Source: Pseudomonas viridiflava (lineage in GTDB: Bacteria > Pseudomonadota > Gammaproteobacteria > Pseudomonadales > Pseudomonadaceae). From it: a stretch of DNA of 64,000 bases. The stretch is taken from assembly GCF_900580675.1 (NCBI RefSeq), contig NZ_UTBG01000001.1, positions 248,001 through 312,000 on the forward strand. The letters are read 5' to 3'. Of the stretch, positions 35,420 to 47,300 are shown one piece after another (positions within the stretch are counted from its first letter, which is position 1; the number at the start of each line of letters is the position of its first letter). A program made the position numbers and the translations under genes. The notes beneath the pieces were generated by a model, which worked only from the letters and a program-made list of their open reading frames with translations, was not told the origin of the DNA and ran no database searches.

Positions 35420-37090
35420 TTATTCACTTGGCGCCTCCAGCACGATACGGCCACTGGAGCAGGCGGCGACGCCGTTACGGTAGGCGAAGTACAGCTTGCC
35501 GCGTTCCGCATCGAAACGCAGGTGCAGTTCGACGCGGTCGCCGGGCCGTACCAGTTGCTGGAACTTGAGCACTTCCATGCCGGCAAAGGTCTCGGGCAAA
35601 TCGAGCAATTGTTGGCCGAGGTTGAACGCCCACTCCACCTGCACCACGCCCGGCAGCACCGGCGTCACCGGGAAGTGGCCGCTGAAATAGGCCAGGTCCG
35701 GCGGCACGCAAAGTTGCACGGTCCATTCGCCGTCAGCTTCGACGTGCTCCAGCACTTCCGGCGCTTTCGGCCGTGGTGCCATCAGCAGCGCGGCCACATC
35801 GGCCTGGGGCAGTTTGCCCTGGGCATTCAGCGGCAGTTGGCGCAGCAGGCGCCAGCGACGCGGCAGGGCCAGGGCTTCGCAATGTTGGCTCAAGTGCTGG
35901 CGCAGGGTTTGGGTGACGGTGCGGCGGCCCTGGTTGCGCAGGGCATGCAGGCCCTCGGCGCTGAGCACCACCAGCGCCCCGAGGGACGCGCGGTTTTCCT
36001 GGACCACGCCCAGGCGGGTTTCGGCAACCCAGGCGTGGGCCATCAATGCCTGCTCCAGCATGGGCAGGGAGATGCGTTTTTCTTCGAGTTTGACGATCCG
36101 ATCCAGGCGCCCCAGCAGCTCGAAGCGGCCATCGGCATGGATGCGTGCGGCGTCGGCGGTTTGTTCGACATGCCCGGCGGGCAAGTACGGCGAGGCGATG
36201 CGCAGGGCACCGTCGGCGTCCTGGCTCAGTTCTACATCGGCGAACGGCTGCCACGGTTGCGCGCCCTGGCGCCAGGCAATGCCGCCGGTTTCCGAGCTGC
36301 CGAGGATTTCCGTCGGCCATTGCTGCAAGCGGTCGTAAAGCTCGCCAGCTGCTTCGATGGGCAACGCACCGCCCGAGGAAAACACCCGCGACACCTGGCT
36401 CAGCGCCGGCCAGTCGAGGTTGTCGCCCATGCGCTTGAGCAGCGCCGGGCTGGCGACCCAGGCGAATTGGGGATGCTCGCGGCTGGCGCGCTGCAGGTCT
36501 TCGGGGAACGCCAATTGTTTGCGCACAAAGGTGCGACCGGCGCACAGCGGCCACAACACCCGGAACAGCAAGCCGTAAATGTGCTGGGTGGCGACGCTGC
36601 CGATGATGCACGCGTCTTTAAGGTCCGCGCCCCACAAGGCTTCCAGCGCCTGGACCTCATTGGCCAGCTGGCGCAGGGTCTTGTCGATGCGCTTTGGCTC
36701 GCCGCTGGAGCCGGAGGTGCACAGGCTCAGTTGGCAGGCGTCGAGGTCCAGCGCGGCAGGGCTCAACGGCGCTTGATAGAGCGCGTCGAGGTCGGCGGCG
36801 TCGACCAGCCAGGCGTCCACGGCGGTGTCCCAGCGTTGGCGGGTCTGGGGTTGCAGGTCGGCGGGCAGCAGCACGCCGACCCCGGCACGCCAGGCACCCA
36901 GCAGGGCAATCGCCAGCAGGCCGGCGTCTTCCAGGTGCACGGCCACGCGCTGGATGCCACGCGCTTGCAGGCCCGCCGCCAGGCTCAGGGCTTGGGCCCA
37001 CAGTTGGGCGTGATTCATTGCAGGTTCGGTGGTGACCAAACGCTGTTCCAGCGGCTCGAGCAACACGTGCTCAAGTTTCAACCCATTCAT
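35420..37090 (-). CDS. apeH: AMP-ligase (ApeH-like) fused to a hot-dog dehydratase (ApeI-like)
   Basis: 556 residues with two functions. Residues ~1-450 are an adenylate-forming acyl-ACP ligase: [20 protein letters not shown] is the P-loop, [32 protein letters not shown], and [19 protein letters not shown] is the hinge. It should load an aryl acid onto an ACP. Residues ~460-556 form a FabZ-like dehydratase: [20 protein letters not shown] has the catalytic His (~472) in GHFP and a Glu further on. In described clusters ApeH and ApeI are separate. I start at ATG 37090, which overlaps the previous stop by ATGA; the open frame extends upstream without family sequence. Confidence 0.87.
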
Positions 37091-37632
37091 ACGCGGCCTC
37101 GAACCCTTTGTCGTACCAGCCATTCCACGGCAAACAACAACCCCATCAGCCCGTAGGCGATCAGGCCGTTGTACAACGTCCACCAACTCAGCGGCGCCCA
37201 CAGCGTGAGGGCGGCGGCGAGCAGACCATTACACAAAAAAAACACACTCCACACCACGGTGACCTGGCGCGTATACACAACGGCGCTCGGTGGCAGGTCC
37301 GGTTCGGTCATGCGCGCCAGGCGCTCGACCATCGGCGGGCCGTATTTCAGGCTCAGGCCGAACAGTGCCAGCATGAACGCGCTGACCAGGCTCGGGTACC
37401 AGCGCAACAGGTGCGGGTTGTCGAACCAGGCCAGCAGCAGGCAGAACACAATCACCGCCACAGCCATCCAGCGGCTGCCCGGCCGGCGTGCGCCGGTCAA
37501 TGCGCGCAACAGCCACAGGCTGCCGAGCAACAGGCCGAATTGCCACGGCGCAAAGTGCTCGGTGCCGTAATACACCGCAAAAGGATACAGCAGCCCCGCC
37601 AGCAACAGGCCAAGGCCGATCAGCCGGCTCAT
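37087..37632 (-). CDS. COG4648-type membrane protein of the aryl polyene cluster
   Basis: 181-residue polytopic membrane protein with four to six hydrophobic segments (LGLLLAGLLYPFAVYYGTEH, MAVAVIVFCLLLAWF, LVSAFMLALFGLSL, VWSVFFLCNGLLAAALTLW, LIAYGLMGLLFAVEWLVRQ). No catalytic motif is visible. A membrane protein of this size lies between the ACP and AMP-ligase genes in aryl polyene clusters (apeG position). Function unknown; a scaffold or a helper in lipid handling is possible. Overlaps the ACP gene by four bases and the ligase by ATGA. Confidence 0.8.
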   Translation of the reverse strand: MSRLIGLGLLLAGLLYPFAVYYGTEHFAPWQFGLLLGSLWLLRALTGARRPGSRWMAVAVIVFCLLLAWFDNPHLLRWYPSLVSAFMLALFGLSLKYGPPMVERLARMTEPDLPPSAVVYTRQVTVVWSVFFLCNGLLAAALTLWAPLSWWTLYNGLIAYGLMGLLFAVEWLVRQRVRGRV

Positions 37633-37883
37633 GCGGCGGGCGTGACCAGACGGTACACCGCCTCAACCACGTCGTTGACGGTGCGCACGGCCTTGAATTC
37701 TTCGGCGGCGATCTTCTTGCCGGTCTGGCGCTTGATATGGTCGATCAGGTCCACGGCATCAATGCTGTCGATTTCCAGGTCCTGATACAGGTTGGCGTCA
37801 AGGGTGACGCGTTCCGGCGGCAATTCAAACAGTTCCACCAAGGCATCGCGCAGGGTGTTGAAAATATCGTCACGAGTTTGCAT
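37629..37883 (-). CDS. apeF: acyl carrier protein, ApeF-like
   Basis: 84-residue ACP. The phosphopantetheine serine is in DLEIDSIDAVDLIDHI (~residue 38). The fold pattern is helix (DIFNTLRDALVELFEL), loop, DSI helix, and a short C-terminal helix (TVNDVVEAVYRLV). It follows a second ACP by nine bases. Two tandem ACPs are standard in aryl polyene clusters, one thought to hold the starter and the other extender or chain intermediates; the sequence does not show which is which. Confidence 0.9.
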   Translation of the reverse strand: MQTRDDIFNTLRDALVELFELPPERVTLDANLYQDLEIDSIDAVDLIDHIKRQTGKKIAAEEFKAVRTVNDVVEAVYRLVTPAA

Positions 37884-37892
37884 GGTCCGGTC

Positions 37893-38162
37893 TCAAGCTG
37901 CCTGTCTGGCCGTGACGAACGCCGCAAGGCTGGCCACGTTGGTGAAGTGATTGCGGGTGTCCTTGGCGTCGGCATCGATTTTGATGCCGTACTTTTTCTG
38001 GATCGCCAGGCCCAGTTCCAGGGCGTCGACCGAATCCAGGCCCAGGCCTTCGCCGAACAGGGTTTGTTCGCTGCCAATGTCGTCGGCGCTGATGTCTTCC
38101 AGGCCCAGGGCCTCGATGATCAGCGTCTTTATGTCGTGCTCAAGGCGGTGTTGGTCGCTCAT
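37893..38162 (-). CDS. apeE: acyl carrier protein, ApeE-like
   Basis: 89-residue ACP. The attachment serine is in FGEGLGLDSVDALELGLAIQ (~residue 38). ATG 38162 begins MSDQHRLEHDIKTLIIEALG; the open frame upstream of it lies inside the acyltransferase gene. It differs clearly from the next ACP (about one third identical by eye), which fits separate roles. Confidence 0.9.
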   Translation of the reverse strand: MSDQHRLEHDIKTLIIEALGLEDISADDIGSEQTLFGEGLGLDSVDALELGLAIQKKYGIKIDADAKDTRNHFTNVASLAAFVTARQAA

Positions 38163-38952
38163 CTTCGGCGAGCTCCTTAATAAAATAGTGGTGCAGGTAA
38201 TCGTTGAGCTTGCGCGAGGCCTGGGGCGCGGGCCCCAGTGCAGCAAAGGCCTGTGGTTCTATATCGGCACCCACGCGCAAACTGAAGTGCACGCGGCGTT
38301 TTGGGATGCGATACCAGGGTTCGGCCTTGGTCAGGGTGGTGGGGCTGACCTTGATCACCACGGGGGTAATGATTGTCGCACCGCGCAGCGCAATGGCGGC
38401 GCCCCCGCGATGAAAGGCAGGCGCCGCGCCGGGTGTGGTACGGGTGCCTTCCGGGAAAATGATCAGGGTCTGGCCGCCGCGCAGGGCATCTGCGGCGGCA
38501 TCGAGCATTTCGGCGCTGCCGTCATTGCTGATATAGGCCGCATCGCGCACCGGGCCGCGGGTGAAGGGGTTTTGCCACAGGCTTTGCTTGACCACGCAGT
38601 TGGCCTGGCGCACCAGGCCGATCAAAAACACCACGTCGATCAGCGAAGGGTGGTTGGCAATGATCATCTGGCCCGGGCGACCGAGGTTTTCCGCGCCTTC
38701 GACGCTGTAGGTCAGCACCCCGGCGCGTTGCATCAGGCGAATAAAGAACCAGAACAGCCAGCTGATCGTATGGCGCGCGCGGCGCCGATGGCTGGCCGCG
38801 TCCCCCGGCAGGCAGCTGAGCAGCGGAAACACCAGCAAGCGCAGGCACAGCCCGCCGAAGCCGAACAGCGCAAAGCTGGCGGCGGTGGCGAGCAGGCGCC
38901 AATAGTAGGCGTCCCGTGGTTTATCGGTCAGGGCTTGCGTTGCCAGTTCCAT
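38140..38952 (-). CDS. lysophospholipid-type acyltransferase (PlsC family)
   Basis: 270-residue membrane acyltransferase. Hydrophobic N-terminal segments (LLATAASFALFGFGGLCLRL, then a second helix near 75) come first, followed by catalytic IIANHPSLIDVVFLIG (H-x4-D, ~105), and by IIFPEGTRTTPG (~167), the two family hallmarks. It holds the apeD-like position after the chain-length factor. It may build the lipid head group to which the aryl polyene is attached. It overlaps the ketosynthase-like gene by 25 bases and the ACP gene by 23 bases. Confidence 0.87.
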   Translation of the reverse strand: MELATQALTDKPRDAYYWRLLATAASFALFGFGGLCLRLLVFPLLSCLPGDAASHRRRARHTISWLFWFFIRLMQRAGVLTYSVEGAENLGRPGQMIIANHPSLIDVVFLIGLVRQANCVVKQSLWQNPFTRGPVRDAAYISNDGSAEMLDAAADALRGGQTLIIFPEGTRTTPGAAPAFHRGGAAIALRGATIITPVVIKVSPTTLTKAEPWYRIPKRRVHFSLRVGADIEPQAFAALGPAPQASRKLNDYLHHYFIKELAEDERPTPP

Positions 38953-39647
38953 ACGCGGTTCTTCCAGGCATGTTGGCAGGCGACCTGTTCAGTGAGCAGG
39001 GTGCGCAGCAGGTTCAGGGCGTGTGGCCACTGGGTTTGACTGAGTTGGACAGTGGCGCTGTTTAGTTCCAACTGCCACTCGTCGCCCGGCGTCAGCAGCA
39101 GGCCCAATGCGTAGGGGAAGGGTACGTCGACGATCCAGCTGGCATAGGCCTCGGGAGGGTATTCTTCGGTGATCACCAGCAATACGGCCGGTGCGCCTTC
39201 GTTGAGCAGCGCGGCGGCTTCGAGCATCCCATGCTCCAGCCCATCGCCGGCCGCGGCGATGGCGGTCATTTCGGCGGTTTCATCGCGCAGGATCGACCAC
39301 AGGCCAATCACCGCGTTGTGCACCGACAAGCTGAATTGGGTCGGCGACAGCGGCTGGTCGTTGGCCAGGTCACTCAGGATATCGAGGGTGCGCGGGGTTT
39401 CGCCATGCCGCGAAATAAACACCAGCGGCAAATCCTGCAGGCCTTCTGCCAGGGGCCAGCCCACGCTGAAGGCCATGCGCGCCAGGCGGCTCAGACGGCG
39501 GCGCTGCATCGCCGGGAGGAATGATACGTCGGGGGAGGCTTCGCTGGCGGGCAGCAACACCGGGTCCCGGCACCAGGCGTGCCAGTCTTCCGCGCTTTCG
39601 AGGCCGGGGGCCCACGCGCGCCATTGGGCGATGTTGAAAGTGATCAC
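38928..39647 (-). CDS. apeC: small ketosynthase-like chain-length factor, ApeC-like
   Basis: 239 residues resembling only the N-terminal half of a ketoacyl synthase. LPAMQRRRLSRLARMAFSVG and VFISRHGETPRTLDILSDLA, followed by SPTQFSLSVHNAVIGLWSIL, match the ketoacyl-synthase-like family found in aryl polyene clusters. The catalytic Cys and His residues of true ketosynthases are not present. In characterised systems ApeC pairs with ApeO as chain-length factor. GTG start at 39647. It is the first gene of the 17 kb operon. Confidence 0.85.
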   Translation of the reverse strand: MITFNIAQWRAWAPGLESAEDWHAWCRDPVLLPASEASPDVSFLPAMQRRRLSRLARMAFSVGWPLAEGLQDLPLVFISRHGETPRTLDILSDLANDQPLSPTQFSLSVHNAVIGLWSILRDETAEMTAIAAAGDGLEHGMLEAAALLNEGAPAVLLVITEEYPPEAYASWIVDVPFPYALGLLLTPGDEWQLELNSATVQLSQTQWPHALNLLRTLLTEQVACQHAWKNRVWNWQRKP

Positions 39648-39984
39648 TGAGAAGATTTCCCGCCCCTGCGGGCTTCCATGTGCGGCCGTTGGCCCCGAAT
39701 ACCGGGACAGGGAGCAGTAGCCGAATGGCGCGCATTATCCCGGTGCCGCGGGGTTCTAGCAAACTTTGGTAAAGATTTGTCCAAGGTCAATTACAAAATA
39801 GTCAGAAAGATTTACCGATTGTCCGTCACCGGGGACCTGGCGGGGTTGTCGGACCCTTCCTGATTTTGTGTATGTGCCATACGACAGGCATTTTTTAATG
39901 CAGCAGTGCATGGATGAACGAGGTAGCTAACAGGCGCTTTTGCCCTCTACACTCGGACATTCATTGATACACGGAGGTTTTTCC
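39648..39984. promoter_or_regulatory. divergent aryl polyene operon / parA promoter region
   Basis: 337 bases between divergent genes. It holds an AT-rich core around 39755-39825 in an otherwise GC-rich stretch, which is where the pigment-operon promoter should be. The palindrome CTTTGGTAAAG and two AAAGATTT direct repeats lie in it. No regulator gene is adjacent and I cannot place -10/-35 boxes with confidence. The stretch has a short open frame (39678-39863) with no coding character. Confidence 0.5.
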
Positions 39985-40755
39985 ATGCGGCGTGTGGTGT
40001 TCAATCAAAAAGGTGGGGTTGGCAAGTCCAGCATCGCCTGCAACCTGGCGGCGGTCAGCGCCAGTGAAGGCTATCGAACCCTGTTGGTAGACCTCGATGC
40101 GCAAGCCAACTCGACCCAGTACCTCACCGGGCTGACCGGCGACGATATCCCGATGGGCATTGCCGAATTCTTCAAGCAGACCCTGTCGTCCGGGCCGTTT
40201 TCGAAGAAGAATCGCGTGGATATCTATGAAACGCCGTTCGACAACCTGCACGTCATCACCGCCACCGCCGAGCTGGCTGACCTGCAGCCCAAGCTTGAGG
40301 CCAAGCACAAGATCAACAAGCTGCGAAAGTTGCTGGATGAATTGAGCGAGGACTATGACCGGATTTATCTCGATACCCCGCCGACGCTGAATTTTTACGC
40401 GGTTTCGGCGCTGATTGCCGCAGATCGTGTACTTATCCCCTTCGACTGCGACAGCTTCTCGCGTCAGGCCCTGTATGGCTTGCTGGCTGAGATCGAAGAA
40501 CTGAAGGAAGACCACAACGAGGGCCTGGAAGTGGAAGGCATTGTGGTCAACCAGTTTCAGGCGCGGGCCAGCCTGCCGCAGCAGATGCTCGATGAGTTGA
40601 TCGCCGAAGGCCTGCCGGTACTGCCGGTGTACCTCGCCAGCTCGGTGCGCATGCGCGAGTCGCACCAGGAGAACAAGCCGCTGATCCACCTGGACCCACG
40701 GCACAAGCTGACGCAGCAGTTCGTGGAGTTGCATAACCTGCTGGAAAACGCCTGA
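39985..40755 (+). CDS. ParA/Soj-family ATPase, orphan
   Basis: 256-residue deviant Walker ATPase. It begins MRRVVFNQKGGVGKSSIACN, with Walker A KGGVGKSS at residues 9-16, VDLDAQANSTQYL (~37-49) and IYLDTPPTLNFYAVSALIAA (switch II). GGAGG eight bases before the ATG at 39985 fixes the start; the track's longer frame is not needed. No parB, parS-like repeat or minE-like partner is adjacent. Relatives position cargo such as chemoreceptor arrays, cellulose or other complexes; the cargo is unknown here. Confidence 0.85.
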   Translation: MRRVVFNQKGGVGKSSIACNLAAVSASEGYRTLLVDLDAQANSTQYLTGLTGDDIPMGIAEFFKQTLSSGPFSKKNRVDIYETPFDNLHVITATAELADLQPKLEAKHKINKLRKLLDELSEDYDRIYLDTPPTLNFYAVSALIAADRVLIPFDCDSFSRQALYGLLAEIEELKEDHNEGLEVEGIVVNQFQARASLPQQMLDELIAEGLPVLPVYLASSVRMRESHQENKPLIHLDPRHKLTQQFVELHNLLENA

Positions 40756-40780
40756 CCCCACAGGCGCCACAAATCCCCCT

Positions 40781-40865
40781 GTGGGAGCTGGCTTGCCTGC
40801 GATGCAGGCAACTCGGTTTGCCAGTTAGACCGGGGTGATGCCATCGCAGGCAAGCCAGCTCCCAC
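40781..40865. repeat. REPIN of the GTGGGAGCTGGCTTGCC type
   Basis: Inverted REPs start at 40781 and end at 40865, pairing through GTGGGAGCTGGCTTGCCTGCGATG-like arms. It lies 25 bases after the parA stop. Same type as 41460-41544. Confidence 0.88.
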
Positions 40866-41039
40866 ATTTGGATTGTGTTTCAGCAGAGGGATCTGGATTG
40901 TTCCTACCGAGGCTGTAGGAAGGGTCTGGCAAGCAGTGGCGTGCCTTGTCTCGTTGCCTACAGATAAGCCAGAATCGCCCGGCTTGTGCGTCTGGATGGG
41001 CGTCTCTAAGGTTCTTCGGTCACTGAATGTTCAGTGATC
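40866..41039. other. intergenic region between REPIN and structured leader
   Basis: No gene seen. It contains a small hairpin CCTAC...GTAGG (about 40897-40913) and, at its right end, the perfect palindrome described separately. Confidence 0.5.
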
Positions 41040-41040
41040 G
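41017..41040. promoter_or_regulatory. 24-base palindrome, TetR-type operator-like
   Basis: CGGTCACTGAA (41017-41027), TG, TTCAGTGATCG (41030-41040): eleven paired positions including one G-T wobble, loop two bases. There is no T-tract, so it is not a typical terminator. Length and symmetry resemble operators of TetR-family dimers, but no such gene is in the window. Confidence 0.45.
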
Positions 41041-41225
41041 GGTTTAGTAGCCCGTGGTGAGACGTACAGCAAATCGTCAGTCAGGATCCTTCTGGCTTCG
41101 ATGGTGGCTGTACGAAGGGCGCTCTCGAGCGCGCCGGTTGCGTCTCCCCGGTCTACTAACCTGCGTACAGCTGCCACCCTCCGTTTAGTAGCGGGCGGGT
41201 AGCGGCTCCTACTCGGAGATGATCC
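41040..41225 (+). ncRNA. structured 5' leader with alternative pairings
   Basis: Repeated complementary segments occur in order. TTAGTAG (41044-41050), GTACAGC (41064-41070), GCTGTAC (41107-41113), CTACTAA (41153-41159), GTACAGC (41165-41171), TTAGTAG (41185-41191). The first two pair with the middle two to make a nested stem, while the second copies can pair with the same partners, so the states exclude one another. A GCGCTC/GAGCGC hairpin (41119-41132) lies inside. CTCC (41206-41209) can pair with the ribosome site GGAG (41215-41218) of the next gene. A 74-codon frame on the opposite strand covers this region but is less convincing. Confidence 0.45.
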
Positions 41226-41441
41226 ATGGTTAACCTTTATACCGTTGTGCCCCACCTCCCCACCGAAACCCTCATCCTCAACAGCTACGAAACCTTCTCC
41301 TCCGTCCGCACGCTATTACTCAACCTGTCCAACGACCTCACTGGCGAACACCGCGACGTGGCCCTGGCTATCCATCAATTGAGCGAACTGGGTGTGTTAC
41401 TGGTCGGCCAGATGATGGACCGCGAAGCCCCGCTGGCCTGA
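41226..41441 (+). CDS. small DUF6124-like protein
   Basis: 71 residues. The sequence TETLILNSYETFSSVRTLLL then DVALAIHQLSELGVLLVGQM resembles the C-terminal part of the DUF6124 family of small Pseudomonas proteins, which are usually about 100 residues, so this one lacks the usual N-terminal region. Two amphipathic helices are predicted. GGAG seven bases before ATG supports the start. Function unknown. It is preceded by a strongly structured leader and followed by a REPIN. Confidence 0.65.
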   Translation: MVNLYTVVPHLPTETLILNSYETFSSVRTLLLNLSNDLTGEHRDVALAIHQLSELGVLLVGQMMDREAPLA

Positions 41442-41459
41442 CCCTGGAATGCGTTCAGT

Positions 41460-41544
41460 GTGGGAGCTGGCTTGCCTGCGATGGCATCACCTCGGTGTGT
41501 CAGGCAAACCGAGTCGCCCGCATCGCAGGCAAGCCAGCTCCCAC
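41460..41544. repeat. REPIN of the GTGGGAGCTGGCTTGCC type
   Basis: Inverted REPs at both ends of 41460-41544; the arms are nearly identical to those of the REPIN at 40781. The two elements flank the structured leader and DUF6124-like gene. Confidence 0.88.
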
Positions 41545-41573
41545 AGTTGACCCCGTTGATTGGCGGGATTGGT

Positions 41574-42008
41574 TTACACCCCCTGGCTACGCAACCAGCT
41601 CATCAACTGCGGCAACGGAAGCGCCCCGCTCTGGCGCGCCACTTCGCGACCGTTCTTGAATAGAATCAAACTGGGAATCGAGCGAATCCCCAACTGCGCC
41701 GACAGCTGCTGATTGGCCTCGCTGTCCAGCTTGGCCAACCGGCACTTGCCCTCAAGCTGCCCAGCGGCCTGCTCGAACACCGGAGCAAACGACTTGCACG
41801 GCCCACACCACTCGGCCCATACATCCACCAGCAACGGCAGGTCGCCCTTGATCTGGCTGGTGTAGTCGCCTTGCTTCAACTCGAAGGGTTTATCCAGCAA
41901 TACAGGCTGCTTGCAGCGCCCGCATTTGGGCGCATCACCCAGGCGTTCGCCGGGGATGCGGTTGAGGCCGCTGCAATGTGGGCAGGGGATGACAAGAAAT
42001 TCGGGCAT
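41574..42008 (-). CDS. trxC: thioredoxin 2
   Basis: 144-residue cytoplasmic disulfide reductase. An N-terminal zinc ribbon has Cys9, Cys12, Cys29 and Cys32 (CPHC, CGRC); the thioredoxin fold carries the active site VWAEWCGPCK with Cys68 and Cys71, and the cis-proline strand RSIPSLILFKNG. ATG at 42008 begins MPEFLVIPCPHC; a longer upstream frame has no family sequence. In TrxC the zinc domain links activity to oxidative stress. Confidence 0.96.
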   Translation of the reverse strand: MPEFLVIPCPHCSGLNRIPGERLGDAPKCGRCKQPVLLDKPFELKQGDYTSQIKGDLPLLVDVWAEWCGPCKSFAPVFEQAAGQLEGKCRLAKLDSEANQQLSAQLGIRSIPSLILFKNGREVARQSGALPLPQLMSWLRSQGV

Positions 42009-42243
42009 GGGGGGCTCCTCGGGGATGGCCAATGGAGTGTATTTGGAGTCGGACCCGGGGTTTATCAAGGCGTGGAGAGGCGACTCATCCACTCACAGTT
42101 TCGCCCGTGCTGATGTGTGCTTGCCTATCTAGGCTGTTAGAGCCTGTTCTGTTCTGAGCCATTGGTCTGTTTGCCGCTATAGCAAATTGCGATATTCACG
42201 GTTCAGGTTTAACCTTCATAGCAAGATGCGATAAGGATGTTGC

Positions 42244-42405
42244 ATGCGAGTGATCAGCGAGAAAAGGATCTGGGAAGCAAAAGAAAAGTAGCCACGTTCA
42301 GCAACGGCTTTGGATCAGTGGTATCGGGCGCAGCGCGTTTACATCAAGCACCTGCTTGATCACCGAGATTACGAGAAAGATAAATGGAAGGAAAAAATCC
42401 GATGA
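42244..42405 (+). pseudogene. HigB-type toxin remnant (premature stop and internal deletion)
   Basis: The frame reads MRVISEKRIWEAKEK, then TAG (42289-42291), then PRSATALDQWYR, and runs on to AQRVYIKHLLDHRDYEKDKW before a stop. The first and middle segments match the N-terminus of HigB mRNA interferases and the last matches their C-terminus (RVYIKH...YDKGKWK-like). About 45 residues between WYR and AQR are missing against the usual ~100. The final TGA overlaps the next gene's ATG (ATGA), the usual higB-higA coupling. The toxin should be inactive both from the stop and from the deletion. Confidence 0.8.
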
Positions 42406-42803
42406 GCGCGCTTATGCGAGTAGCGGCCGAACACTGGCAGTTCGTTTCGCCGGTGATGCGCAAACCAGAAAATGAAGCAGACTACGACGCGCTGGTGTGT
42501 GGCCTGGACGAGTTGTTGAGCCTGATCGGCGAAAACGAAGACAGCCCGCTCATGAGCCTGGTGGACATACTCAGCGACTGGATCGAAGCCTACGATCACG
42601 AACACCGGCCAATGCCCGTAGCCAGTGGCGTTGATGTGCTGCGCTATATGATGCGCGAACATAATCTCACCCAGAGCGATCTGCCTGGGGTAGGCGCACA
42701 GTCGGTCGTATCCGAGGTTTTGAGCGGCAAGCGCCAGCTCAACGTGCGGCAGATTCGTTGGCTGGCGGAGCGGTTTGGCGTGTCAGTGGAAACCTTTATC
42801 TGA
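42402..42803 (+). CDS. HigA-type antitoxin / HTH regulator
   Basis: 133 residues. The N-terminal half is a helical dimerisation segment (DALVCGLDELLSLIGENEDS). The C-terminal half is an XRE/HTH DNA-binding domain (LRYMMREHNLTQSDLPGVGA, then EVLSGKRQLNVRQIRWLAER, then FGVSVETF). This matches HigA-like antitoxins that lie downstream of higB. I choose ATG 42402, which overlaps the toxin-remnant stop; an upstream in-frame ATG at 42384 is also possible. The frame is intact although the toxin gene is broken. It ends four bases from the convergent selO stop. Confidence 0.8.
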   Translation: MSALMRVAAEHWQFVSPVMRKPENEADYDALVCGLDELLSLIGENEDSPLMSLVDILSDWIEAYDHEHRPMPVASGVDVLRYMMREHNLTQSDLPGVGAQSVVSEVLSGKRQLNVRQIRWLAERFGVSVETFI

Positions 42804-42807
42804 GGCT

Positions 42808-44319
<1,512 letters not shown>

Positions 44320-47300
44320 TTAGTCGAGTTTGCTCGGCGGTGGTTCCGGCGCGTCGTCGACTTTACTGGCTGGCGGCTCGGGGGCGTCCTGCTCGGCGGT
44401 AGCCCCGGCGATGGTCTTGCGATCATCCTCGACCGGCACCAGTTTGTATTCCTGACCGTGCATGTTCTTGAGGTACACCTCCATCTGCCGGAACGAGATG
44501 TTGATGTGCTGTTTCTTGAATTCACGGTTGATGTAGCGGTTGACCTCGTCCAGCACCGGGTTACGGTCGCCCAGGTCGCGCACGTGCATGCGCAGCTCGT
44601 GGTCGAGGGTGCTTTCGCCGAAGTTGAGGAAGTACACGTGGGGTTCCGGTTCTTTCAACACCCGTGGGTTTTCTCGCGCAGCCTTGAGCAACAAGTCCTT
44701 CACGAGATCCAGATCGGAGCCGTAGTCCACGCCGAGTTTCAAGGTGACGCGGGTGATGGTGTCGGTCAGCGACCAGTTGATCAGTTGCCCGGTAATAAAC
44801 GTCTTGTTCGGGACAATGATGTCCTTGCGGTCGAAGTCGGTAATGGTGGTGGCGCGGATGCGGATCTTGCTCACCGTGCCCGACAGGTTGCCGATGGTGA
44901 TGGTGTCGCCGATGCGCACCGGGCGCTCGAACAGGATCATGATGCCGGAGATAAAGTTGGCGAAGATCTCCTGCATCCCGAAGCCCAACCCCACCGACAG
45001 CGCTGCGACCAGCCATTGCAACTTGTCCCAGCTCACGCCGAGGGTCGACAGGGTCGAGACAAAGCCCACGCCGGCAATCACATAGGACAGCAAGGTAGTG
45101 GTGGCATACGCGCTGCCCTGGGCCAGCTCCAGTTTGGACAGCACCAGCACTTCGAGTAAACCGGGCAGGTTGCGCGCCAGCGCGAAGGTGATGCCGATGA
45201 TGATCAGCGCGCCGAGCAAATCGCCGATGCTGATCGGCACCATGCTGATATTGGCGCCGGTGCCGCTGGTGTATTCGTAGAGGGTGACGTTGTCCAGGTA
45301 CGAGAACACCGAGATCAGGTCCGACCATACCCAGTACAGCGCCGCGATAAAGCCGCCGAGCAGGGCCAGGCGGATCAGGCGCATCGACTGTTCGTTGACC
45401 TGCTCGATGTCCAGGGTCGGTTCTTCGATCACCGCTTCGCCGTCGCCGGCCTCCTTGGCGGCCTGGCGTTTGGCCAGGGCTCGCGCGTAGGCCAGGCGCC
45501 GTGCGGCAACGCCCAGGCCGCGCACGAACGTGGCTTCGATCACCAGCCAGAACATCAGCAGGTACAGGGTGTTGATCAGGCGGTCGCTGAGTTTGAGCGC
45601 GGTGTAGTAGTAGCCGAAGCACACGGCAATAAACAGCGCGATGGGCAGCGCGGTAAACAGCAGGCCCACGGCTTTGCGGAACAGCGAGGCTTTTTCGTGA
45701 GTCGGGCTGTTCAGCAGCAGGCGGCCCAGCAGCCAGGCCATCAACGCGTAGCAGGTCAGTACCACGCCGATTCCCAGCACATCGTCGGCGAGGGCGGCCG
45801 GCTGGTGTTCGGCAATCGCCACCACGGCCACCAGCGCCAGCACCACCAGCCCGAGTTTGCGCACCCAGCCCTGGAGGAATTCGACCTGGGGTTTTTCCCA
45901 GCGGAAATGCAGCTCGGCCACGCCACCCGGCGCCAGGATGCGGTACGCGGTGTAGAACACCAGCCAGGCCTGGGCGATTTGCAGCAGGGCCGCGCCAAGG
46001 TTGGCGTTTTGCCCGCGGGCGTCGATCTGCAGCGCGTAGCCGCACAGCGCCAGGCCCAGGGCCACCGGCATGGCCAGCAGGATGTTGATCAAAATCGCCT
46101 GGGGCGTGTGCCACTGGCTGTCGCGTTTGAAGTGGCCGATGTCCAGATGCACCTTGTTCAGGCGCTGGTACAGGGCTTTGCGGCGCCACAGCAATGCGCC
46201 GATCAACAGCAGCAGCGGCAGGAACAGCAGCGGGCGCTGGGTCAGGCCGTCGTACAACTCGCTGACGCTGGAGGCCCAGGGCAGGGTGGTGACTTGCTTG
46301 CTCAGGTGCGCCGGCACGGTTTCCAGCCACTCGGTGTCCAGCGGCTTGTTGCTCGGGATCCAGAACATCTGCTCATCGAGCGTCGCGCGCAGGGTGGTGG
46401 CGGTACTCAGCAGTTGTTTCTGGTTGAGTTGCAGGGTGATTGATTCGTTCAGCAGCGCGCTCAGCTCGCGGCTCAGTCGCTCGAGCAGGTCGCTGCGGGT
46501 GATCGCCAGTTCCAGCAGGGTGCGGCGCAGTTGCGGGGTGACGTCGCTCGGCGCCTGGCTGGCCAGCAGGTTGTCCACATAGGTGCTGGGCGAACTGATC
46601 AGCTCGCGCTGCTGGTTGACCTCGAACTGGTACAGGCGAATGTTGGCGATATCGTCCGCCAGGTCGCGGTCCACCGTCAGGCGGGGCAGCGCCTGTTTCT
46701 GTTTATAGAGGATCTTGGACAGCAGCAGGCTGCCCTTGAGCACGTTGATCTGCTCGTCCAGGGCCGAATCGCTCTGCGTCACGGTGTCCAGCTGCTGCTT
46801 GGTCTGCAGGTTTTTCTGGGTCAGGTCGTTGAGGCGGTCGGTGCTTTTCAGCAGGTAGTCAGACAGCTTGAGGTTGGCCGCGCTTTCCGTGGCCAGCAGG
46901 CTGCTGCCGCCGGCCTTCTGCGCTTCGATTGACTGCTGGGTAACGGTCTGTTGCGACTGGGCCAGGCGTTTCTGGTTGATCAGGGTTTGCAGGTCCTGGA
47001 TCTCTTGCTCCAGGCGCGCGGTTTTTTCCACCACCAGGTCGTGCTGGCTATTGCCCAGGTCCTGTAGTTGGCTGTTGCCGGCAAGTTCCTGGCGGCGCAG
47101 GGGGATCAGCGCATTCAGCGCGGCAAGTTCGGCGTTGAGCTGGTTGCGTTGGTCGCCGCTGATGGATTTGCCGTTATCCTTGCCGCTCTTGAGGATCGAA
47201 TTGATCTGCTGGATACGCGTCTGGCTGCTGCTGATTTCGGTCTGGGCGCGCTCGGGGCGGGTCTGCGCGGCGATGCTCAGGCTGTTGGCGTCGGCCAGTT

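Follow-up and report, generated by a model that had tools for sequence, protein, structure and literature searches.

A C4 antisense RNA module in the leader of a small DUF6124 gene of Pseudomonas viridiflava, and its many address-bearing relatives

The leader of the small gene at positions 41226-41441 of the DNA analyzed here, a stretch of 64,000 nucleotides from Pseudomonas viridiflava that we refer to as the window, raises the question of what kind of RNA it encodes and how that RNA might control the gene (all leader features below lie on the forward strand). A preliminary description had read the leader as switch-like, a riboswitch or attenuator, on the grounds that two segments are each present twice around a single complementary partner. 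The sequence bears this layout out: TTAGTAG occurs at 41044-41050 and 41185-41191, with its single complement CTACTAA at 41153-41159, and GTACAGC occurs at 41064-41070 and 41165-41171, with its single complement GCTGTAC at 41107-41113. In addition, CTCC at 41206-41209 can indeed pair with, and hide, the GGAG of the ribosome site at 41215-41218, and the gene is what it had been taken for, encoding a 71-residue protein of the DUF6124 family (PF19619, E 3e-25).

The core of the leader can be assigned to a known RNA family. When the window was compared with all of Rfam, positions 41097-41181 matched the C4 antisense RNA (RF01695) over the full model (1-87) with 70.4 bits (E 1.7e-12; gathering score 45). 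The leader core is therefore a C4 antisense RNA module of phage type. Folded alone, it takes the canonical form of three stems (P1, P2 and P3) with the loops a' and b', at -38.3 kcal/mol. Within the fold of the 23 paralogous C4s of this genome, 12 of 27 pairs show changes on both sides that keep the pairing, and within P2 as many as 12 of the 23 paralogues have both partners of a pair altered. Covariation, which the preliminary description had proposed as a check, is thus found, both here and in the concerted differences between orthologues described below. Directly upstream, 41006-41058 matches the c4-a1b1 family (RF03163) with 45.6 bits, 1.1 bits below its gathering score of 46.7, which is reached by five of 26 orthologues (47.3-49.1 bits).

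Given that the core is a C4 RNA, TTAGTAG is the address that both a1 and a2 present as targets, and loop a' of C4 reads CTACTAA. In other words, the pairing seen earlier is real, and the repeats are targets for the loops of a separate RNA rather than the arms of a switch. The first target of loop a' is the hairpin a1 (41039-41054), with the loop TTTAGTAG between CGGG and CCCG, recognized because its 7-nt word recurs exactly in a2 and, as the complement, in C4. Overlapping it lies the 5' hairpin of the a1b1 element (41017-41040), an inverted repeat within the RF03163 match at which the transcript is predicted to start, and further downstream comes b1 (GAGACGTA, 41059-41066), which is complementary to loop b' and changes from one orthologue group to the other along with b' and b2. 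Within C4, loop b' (TGCGTCTCC, 41139-41147) is the anti-ribosome-site segment and can pair with b1 as well as with GGAGATG at 41215-41221, whereas loop a' (41153-41159) is the address segment, the reverse complement of TTAGTAG in a1 and a2. Downstream of C4 follow a2 (41184-41191), the second target of loop a', with the same word TTTAGTAG as a1, and the ribosome-site region b2 (41206-41221), which comprises CTCC and GGAGATG. The complementarities that characterize RF01695 are present in the window: a' matches a1 and a2 in an exact three-way word of 7 nt, and b' can pair with b2 over 7 bp, including one G-U. The computed duplex of a'b' with a1b1 reaches -32.2 kcal/mol, and the best computed duplex of a'b' with a2b2 spans 41184-41208, ending before GGAG.

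For comparisons across loci, we collected 86 C4 loci. This genome contributed 23 and relatives the other 63, which were taken from matches ordered by score; tests involving b', the promoter or GTACAGC used 74 of these, with 12 left out for having no a1 word 50-95 nt upstream. A sigma-70-type promoter (TTGTGC 40984-40989, a spacer of 17 nt, TAAGGT 41007-41012) precedes the a1 hairpin in the window, so that a1b1 would form the 5' end of the RNA. A promoter of the form TTGnnn-N16..18-TAnnnT is found 5' of the a1 hairpin at 66 of the 74 loci (shuffled sequences: mean 1.4, maximum 8). Just 5' of the -35 box, a further conserved block (40943-40983) reads CCTAC...GCCAGAATCCGCCGGC or a close variant and recurs at L019, L020, L043, L047, L082, L083, L085 and L088-L090; words related to it, picked post hoc, are present at 26 of 66 loci, compared to a mean of 4.0 and a maximum of 9 in shuffled sequences. 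It is perhaps an activator site.

Processing by RNase P to about 77 nt is counted among the features of C4 RNAs. We consider it very probable that a C4 cut from its own leader represses translation of DUF6124, in a unit with the order a1b1 - C4 - a2b2 - DUF6124. Positions of about 41018 to 41441 would form a single transcription unit, the RNA of which would be started at the a1b1 hairpin by a constitutive-looking promoter. By analogy with P1, C4 would then be excised, probably by RNase P at GGT 41103; a possible cut next to this GGT is suggested by both P1 and Acinetobacter baumannii (PMC5320573, in the part available). The excised C4 would act on new transcripts, with loop a' (CTACTAA) docking on a2 and loop b' (CGTCTCC) covering the ribosome site, which would keep the DUF6124 protein low. 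A second predicted partner of C4 is the a1b1 element at the start of the precursor from which it would be cut; this pairing may provide feedback and act as a sink for C4. The accessible text of PMC5320573 gives the precedent for P1, in which C4 is cut from a precursor, a' provides specificity and b' covers the ribosome site.

If this reading is right, the loops and their targets should have changed together. We collected relatives by scanning the genomes of named species with an alignment of five close proteins and keeping the best 80 of 163 found, all from Pseudomonas; given this query and selection, the sample represents the subfamily of the window rather than all DUF6124 (a usable start was lacking at 15 of these loci, and the alignment used for folding was built from 48 of the remaining 65). 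C4 lies directly upstream of DUF6124 at 78 of the 80 loci, 73 of which carry TTAGTAG in the three-way arrangement. The window locus lies between parA and trxC on the chromosome, and 26 of the 80 relatives occupy the same site after parA, with trxC also on the locus in 25 of them. With the window, this yields 27 leaders at one site, of which 13 have a b' containing GTCTCC (window-type) and 14 have another b' (CTTTCGTTC in eight, CTTTGTTC in four, other forms in two). The best b'-b2 duplex averages 7.67 Watson-Crick pairs within a leader, 6.60 between leaders of the same group and 4.05 between groups; for b'-b1 the corresponding means are 6.89, 6.23 and 4.70. In the other 12 window-type leaders, b' forms 6-7 Watson-Crick pairs with the ribosome site; the fit between b1 and b' is poor in L151, L164 and L167. 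These calculations show that b', b1 and b2 differ in concert between the two orthologue groups, that is, that they have coevolved.

Two loci of the sample (L187 and L191) retain DUF6124 with a promoter and an a1 hairpin and have neither C4 nor a2, which places a1 directly before the ribosome site. We predict that they are targets in trans of sister C4 RNAs, the word of L191 being altered. Among 29 trxC loci of further relatives, 25 also show parA. One of these 25 (L114, in genome G044) has a C4 leader and a truncated DUF6124 beside REP-like sequence, and the other 24 gave no DUF6124 match (tblastn, 1e-3); the site in further relatives is thus usually without the gene.

The second repeated word, GTACAGC, bears on whether the leader might nevertheless be a ligand riboswitch, or an attenuator with two states acting only in cis. 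Alternative pairings are present in the leader, and the copy of GTACAGC in the spacer after b1, the other copy belonging to the P1 stem of C4, is unchanged or almost so in all but one of the 13 window-type leaders (GTACAGC in eight and GTACGGC in four, the remaining leader having GTGCAGT), where it overlaps b1. Across the 74 loci, however, runs of at least 6 nt between the P1 5' strand and the spacer occur at 18, compared to 19.3% of cross pairs (the mean shows a weak excess, reached by 58 of 5000 permutations), and between the P1 3' strand and the spacer at 14, compared to 15.0% (599 of 5000 permutations). The GTACAGC trio is therefore kept in close orthologues and is not supported as a general feature, or as a general switch. 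Since the core matches C4, and a search of 36000-46000 gave no riboswitch match at E values of 1 or less, we regard a riboswitch or cis-only switch as highly improbable. Of the switch-like leader as first described, a structured regulatory leader with alternative pairings and occlusion of the ribosome site is retained, and the ligand riboswitch is dropped.

The DUF6124 gene is a real one. Over 325 pairs of orthologues (26 of the 27 site genes, L162 being left out because the frame assigned to it was wrong), mean dN/dS is 0.126 at a mean dS of 0.60, which shows that the gene is under purifying selection. The preliminary description had named as a refuting outcome that an antisense frame of 74 codons (41031-41255) is the true gene. 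This frame is open in the window; its open length varies between 44 and 96 aa across the 27 orthologous leaders, though, and its two Pfam matches lie below cut-off, and we reject it as a gene with near certainty. The DUF6124 protein is modeled by AlphaFold2 as a helical hairpin (H13-35 / H40-67; pLDDT 88.5). A structure search with this model gave no significant hit (best E 0.94 in the PDB and 0.30 among viral models); ColE1 Rop appeared at PDB rank 8 (E 2.2), as any helical hairpin might. The DUF6124 profile had no match among PDB sequences and the window protein none in PADLOC or NCBIfam, and a search of the open-licence literature, supplements excluded, found no paper on DUF6124.

A small protein under predicted antisense control also calls to mind type I toxin-antitoxin systems, in which case DUF6124 would harm the cell and C4 would be its RNA antitoxin. 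C4 copies without a recognized gene number two of 23 in this genome (L013 and L030), whereas DUF6124 genes without C4 are rare (one of 17 here, two of 80 in the sample), although the counts behind this comparison are small. The low dN/dS and the presence of 26 orthologues at one site instead suggest a kept function. We consider a toxin role unlikely; as with the other alternatives for mode and function discussed below, it would be compatible with repression by C4. L013 shares its address word with the intact L015.

The window cassette is one of many. All 23 C4 matches in this genome score above cut-off, and C4 adjoins 16 of its 17 DUF6124 genes, the remaining one being without such a leader. 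C4 was detected in 25 of 38 genomes including this one, namely in 23 of 25 genomes of the genus Pseudomonas, at 1-42 copies each, and in two of 13 genomes from other families of the order, as a single copy each; 14 control genomes had none. A scan of the phylum, in which at most 14 candidates per genome were scored under stricter filters, found C4 (E up to 0.001) in 42 of 299 genomes, above cut-off in 40. DUF6124 was found in five of the 299 phylum genomes, in four of them above cut-off, all four belonging to this genus. C4 cassettes also occur in tandem, as pairs separated by about 0.7-1.8 kb, at L054, L069, L088, L089 and L147.

Across the 86 loci, the address arrangement is general while the address itself varies. 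A three-way match of 7 nt, shared by a1, a2 and the complement in C4, occurs at 75 of 86 loci (20 of the 23 in this genome) with many different words, compared to 399 of 7310 mismatched pairs of C4 and leader. Taken singly, a1 and a2 are each matched at 81 of 86 loci; among cross pairs, a2 is matched in 559 of 7310 and a1, for which a wider stretch was scanned, in 1622 of 7310. Likewise, runs of at least 6 nt connect b' to the ribosome-site region of its own leader at 46 of 74 loci (cross pairs: 12.4%) and to its own b1 at 32 of 74 (cross pairs: 4.3%), and the self means of b'-b2 and b'-b1 were each reached by none of 5000 permutations. Duplex energies give a less distinct picture. For the 23 loci of this genome, the own partner ranks first 4 times with a'-a2 energies, 11 times with a'-a1, 9 times with b'-ribosome site and once with b'-b1, and the self-mean energy was reached in 0, 0, 0 and 17 of 2000 permutations, respectively. 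Indeed, the plain duplex energy of the window C4 with the a1b1 of L014 (-24.0) is lower than that with its own a1b1 (-22.4). Considering that cognate and other pairs are so poorly separated, we rejected duplex energies as proof of orthogonality and base that claim on the exact words and the permutation tests. Cross-talk may accordingly occur among the five cassettes of this genome that share TTAGTAG, and beyond them. The many address variants, together with a single site that has two matched b'/b1/b2 groups, make antisense specificity testable with natural compensatory differences.

The genes behind C4 differ as well. Using our own profiles with checked seeds, we found DUF6124 after C4 at 39 of the 86 loci, DUF3077 (PF11275) at 16, two further small families at 7 each, an Ant-like antirepressor at 3 and another small family at 2, with none of these at the remaining 12. 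DUF6124 (PF19619) and DUF3077 are thus both families that follow C4, with the window protein belonging to the former, and their profiles overlap in some proteins. Since a C4 leader precedes nearly every DUF6124 gene, 16 of the 17 present here and 78 of the 80 sampled from the subfamily, the association offers a handle on both families. For DUF3077, a single mention was found in the open-licence literature, and no function (PMC9630843, in the part available). At L073, L074, L084, L091 and L092, a short ORF beginning at the b2 ribosome site stands ahead of DUF3077, much as icd does ahead of ant in P1. The order of short ORF and DUF3077 also resembles the coupling of orf45 and anrP, as described in the available text of PMC4825925.

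With regard to known systems, the gene order of immI in P1 and P7 is c4-icd-ant. The window shares with immI (RF01695) the C4 fold, the a' and b' loops, the targets a1b1 and a2b2 and the complementarity of b' to the ribosome site. It differs in its chromosomal site between parA and trxC, in the many copies per genome and in carrying DUF6124 instead of the icd-ant operon that, in the phage, ends in an antirepressor. An Ant-like gene does follow C4, as in immI, at three of the 86 loci; these (L036, L037 and L087, in genomes of the genus Pseudomonas) have the classical kind of target. The closest report that we found concerns A. baumannii, where the 21 similar sRNAs of Group 1 are all encoded in a single genome; most adopt the C4 fold, and they are apparently processed and differ in a' (PMC5320573, in the part available). 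Cis targets are not named in the available part of that report (PMC5320573), whereas cognate targets and a gene family next to C4 are identified here. Multicopy C4, known from Acinetobacter, is here found in Pseudomonas as well. A search of the open-licence literature for C4 antisense RNA together with Pseudomonas fluorescens found no paper. The window element is ordinary in kind, being a C4 antisense RNA, and unusual in its setting and scale.

A further comparison is with the IsrK/orf45/anrP system of Gifsy-1 and the CI RNA of P4 (seqA, seqC), which have an upstream target-like RNA and an antisense RNA in common with the window (PMC4825925, available text). According to the same text, these systems have a terminator and translational coupling into an antirepressor, both terminator and antirepressor being absent from the window (PMC4825925). 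This suggests another mode of action, attenuation as in P4 and IsrK, in which a terminator located between a1b1 and C4 is released once C4 pairs with b1, so that transcription ends upstream of C4 and the gene. Besides the P4 CI RNA precedent (PMC4825925, in part), the isrK of Burkholderia cenocepacia has a terminator and forms one transcription unit with C4, according to the accessible part of PMC4603805. Among the 86 loci, a T-run of at least 5 lies between a1 and C4 in 40 (shuffles: mean 3.0; reverse strand: 6), and a strict stem with T-run in 20 (shuffles: 1.9; reverse strand: 5). When b1 was blocked in 39 folded loci, terminator pairing rose by more than 0.1 in 18 and fell in 3, yet 18 were unchanged. 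In the window, where the longest T-run in the 60 nt before C4 is 3, the intrinsic terminator between target and antisense RNA that marks P4 CI and IsrK is missing, and an intrinsic terminator is therefore not the mode of the window. As the mode of control, we hold attenuation to be improbable, but an added attenuation step fits about half of the relatives.

Repression by C4 also leaves room for a function directed outward, in which C4 mainly meets RNA with the same address from incoming phages or sister cassettes, and either silences such RNA or is titrated by it, releasing DUF6124. Viral contigs of IMG/VR speak for such encounters. The exact TTTAGTAG a1 hairpin was found there in 25 stretches, 21 with a full three-way cassette, and the TTTGGCGA form in 65, 58 with a full cassette (L223-L312 and L313-L369, including L313 and L346). 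Furthermore, 57 loci carry DUF6124 relatives, with a three-way address in 46, compared to 25 of 2280 random stretches from the same loci. L187 and L191, which keep a1 and lack C4, could answer only to a C4 in trans. On the other hand, the window protein itself found no match in 50,697 phage and 72,556 plasmid records, and some of the IMG/VR sequence may belong to chromosomal flanks or to tailocins. We judge this immunity or sensor function to be a minority possibility.

Tail and defence genes are among the neighbours of the IMG/VR cassettes, several of which lie inside tail-gene modules beside cargo genes, many of defence families. The two commonest clusters of flanking ORFs are of one kind, tape-measure proteins (21 and 13 ORFs), as confirmed with PHROGs for one member each; PHROGs also identified a sheath, a tail and a baseplate protein. 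Seventy low-copy flanking ORFs, picked by hand from 116, match 335 PADLOC families, including DSR2, AriA, PtuA and AbiLi, and the domains that they match in Pfam include Mrr, ApeA, Shedu and SIR2. For comparison, a baseline set of 40 window ORFs yielded matches to two PADLOC families, with one ORF each; as many PADLOC models match each protein and the sets are unmatched, this is a contrast rather than a measured enrichment. The 56 ORFs flanking the other 22 cassettes of this genome match 44 PADLOC families, and the 25 of these listed, which include DpdF, RT-Toprim, PsyrT, RmrA and PDC-S04, are matched by a single ORF each. In Pfam, the 25 of 69 families listed for these ORFs are mainly metabolic or envelope functions, with one tail-sheath domain.

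Taken further, the C4 copies could form a genome-wide, address-coded family that acts as a panel of sensors for phages and rival cassettes, an idea that we put forward as speculative and rather unlikely. Up to 42 modules per genome would each have a 7-nt word by which most repress a small protein, and foreign RNA with the same word would titrate C4 and release the protein. The modules would be gained and lost at chromosomal sites and at tail-gene cargo spots beside defence genes.

Finally, two REPIN-like inverted repeats (40779-40866 and 41459-41546; 92% complementary to each other) flank the gene, as the preliminary description had noted in speaking of a bracket. A REP core is present on both sides in four of the 23 cassettes of this genome, and we therefore rejected the bracket as a part of the unit. 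Among relatives, 24 parA-trxC gaps lack the cassette, and visual inspection places a repeat of this kind in roughly half of them or more.
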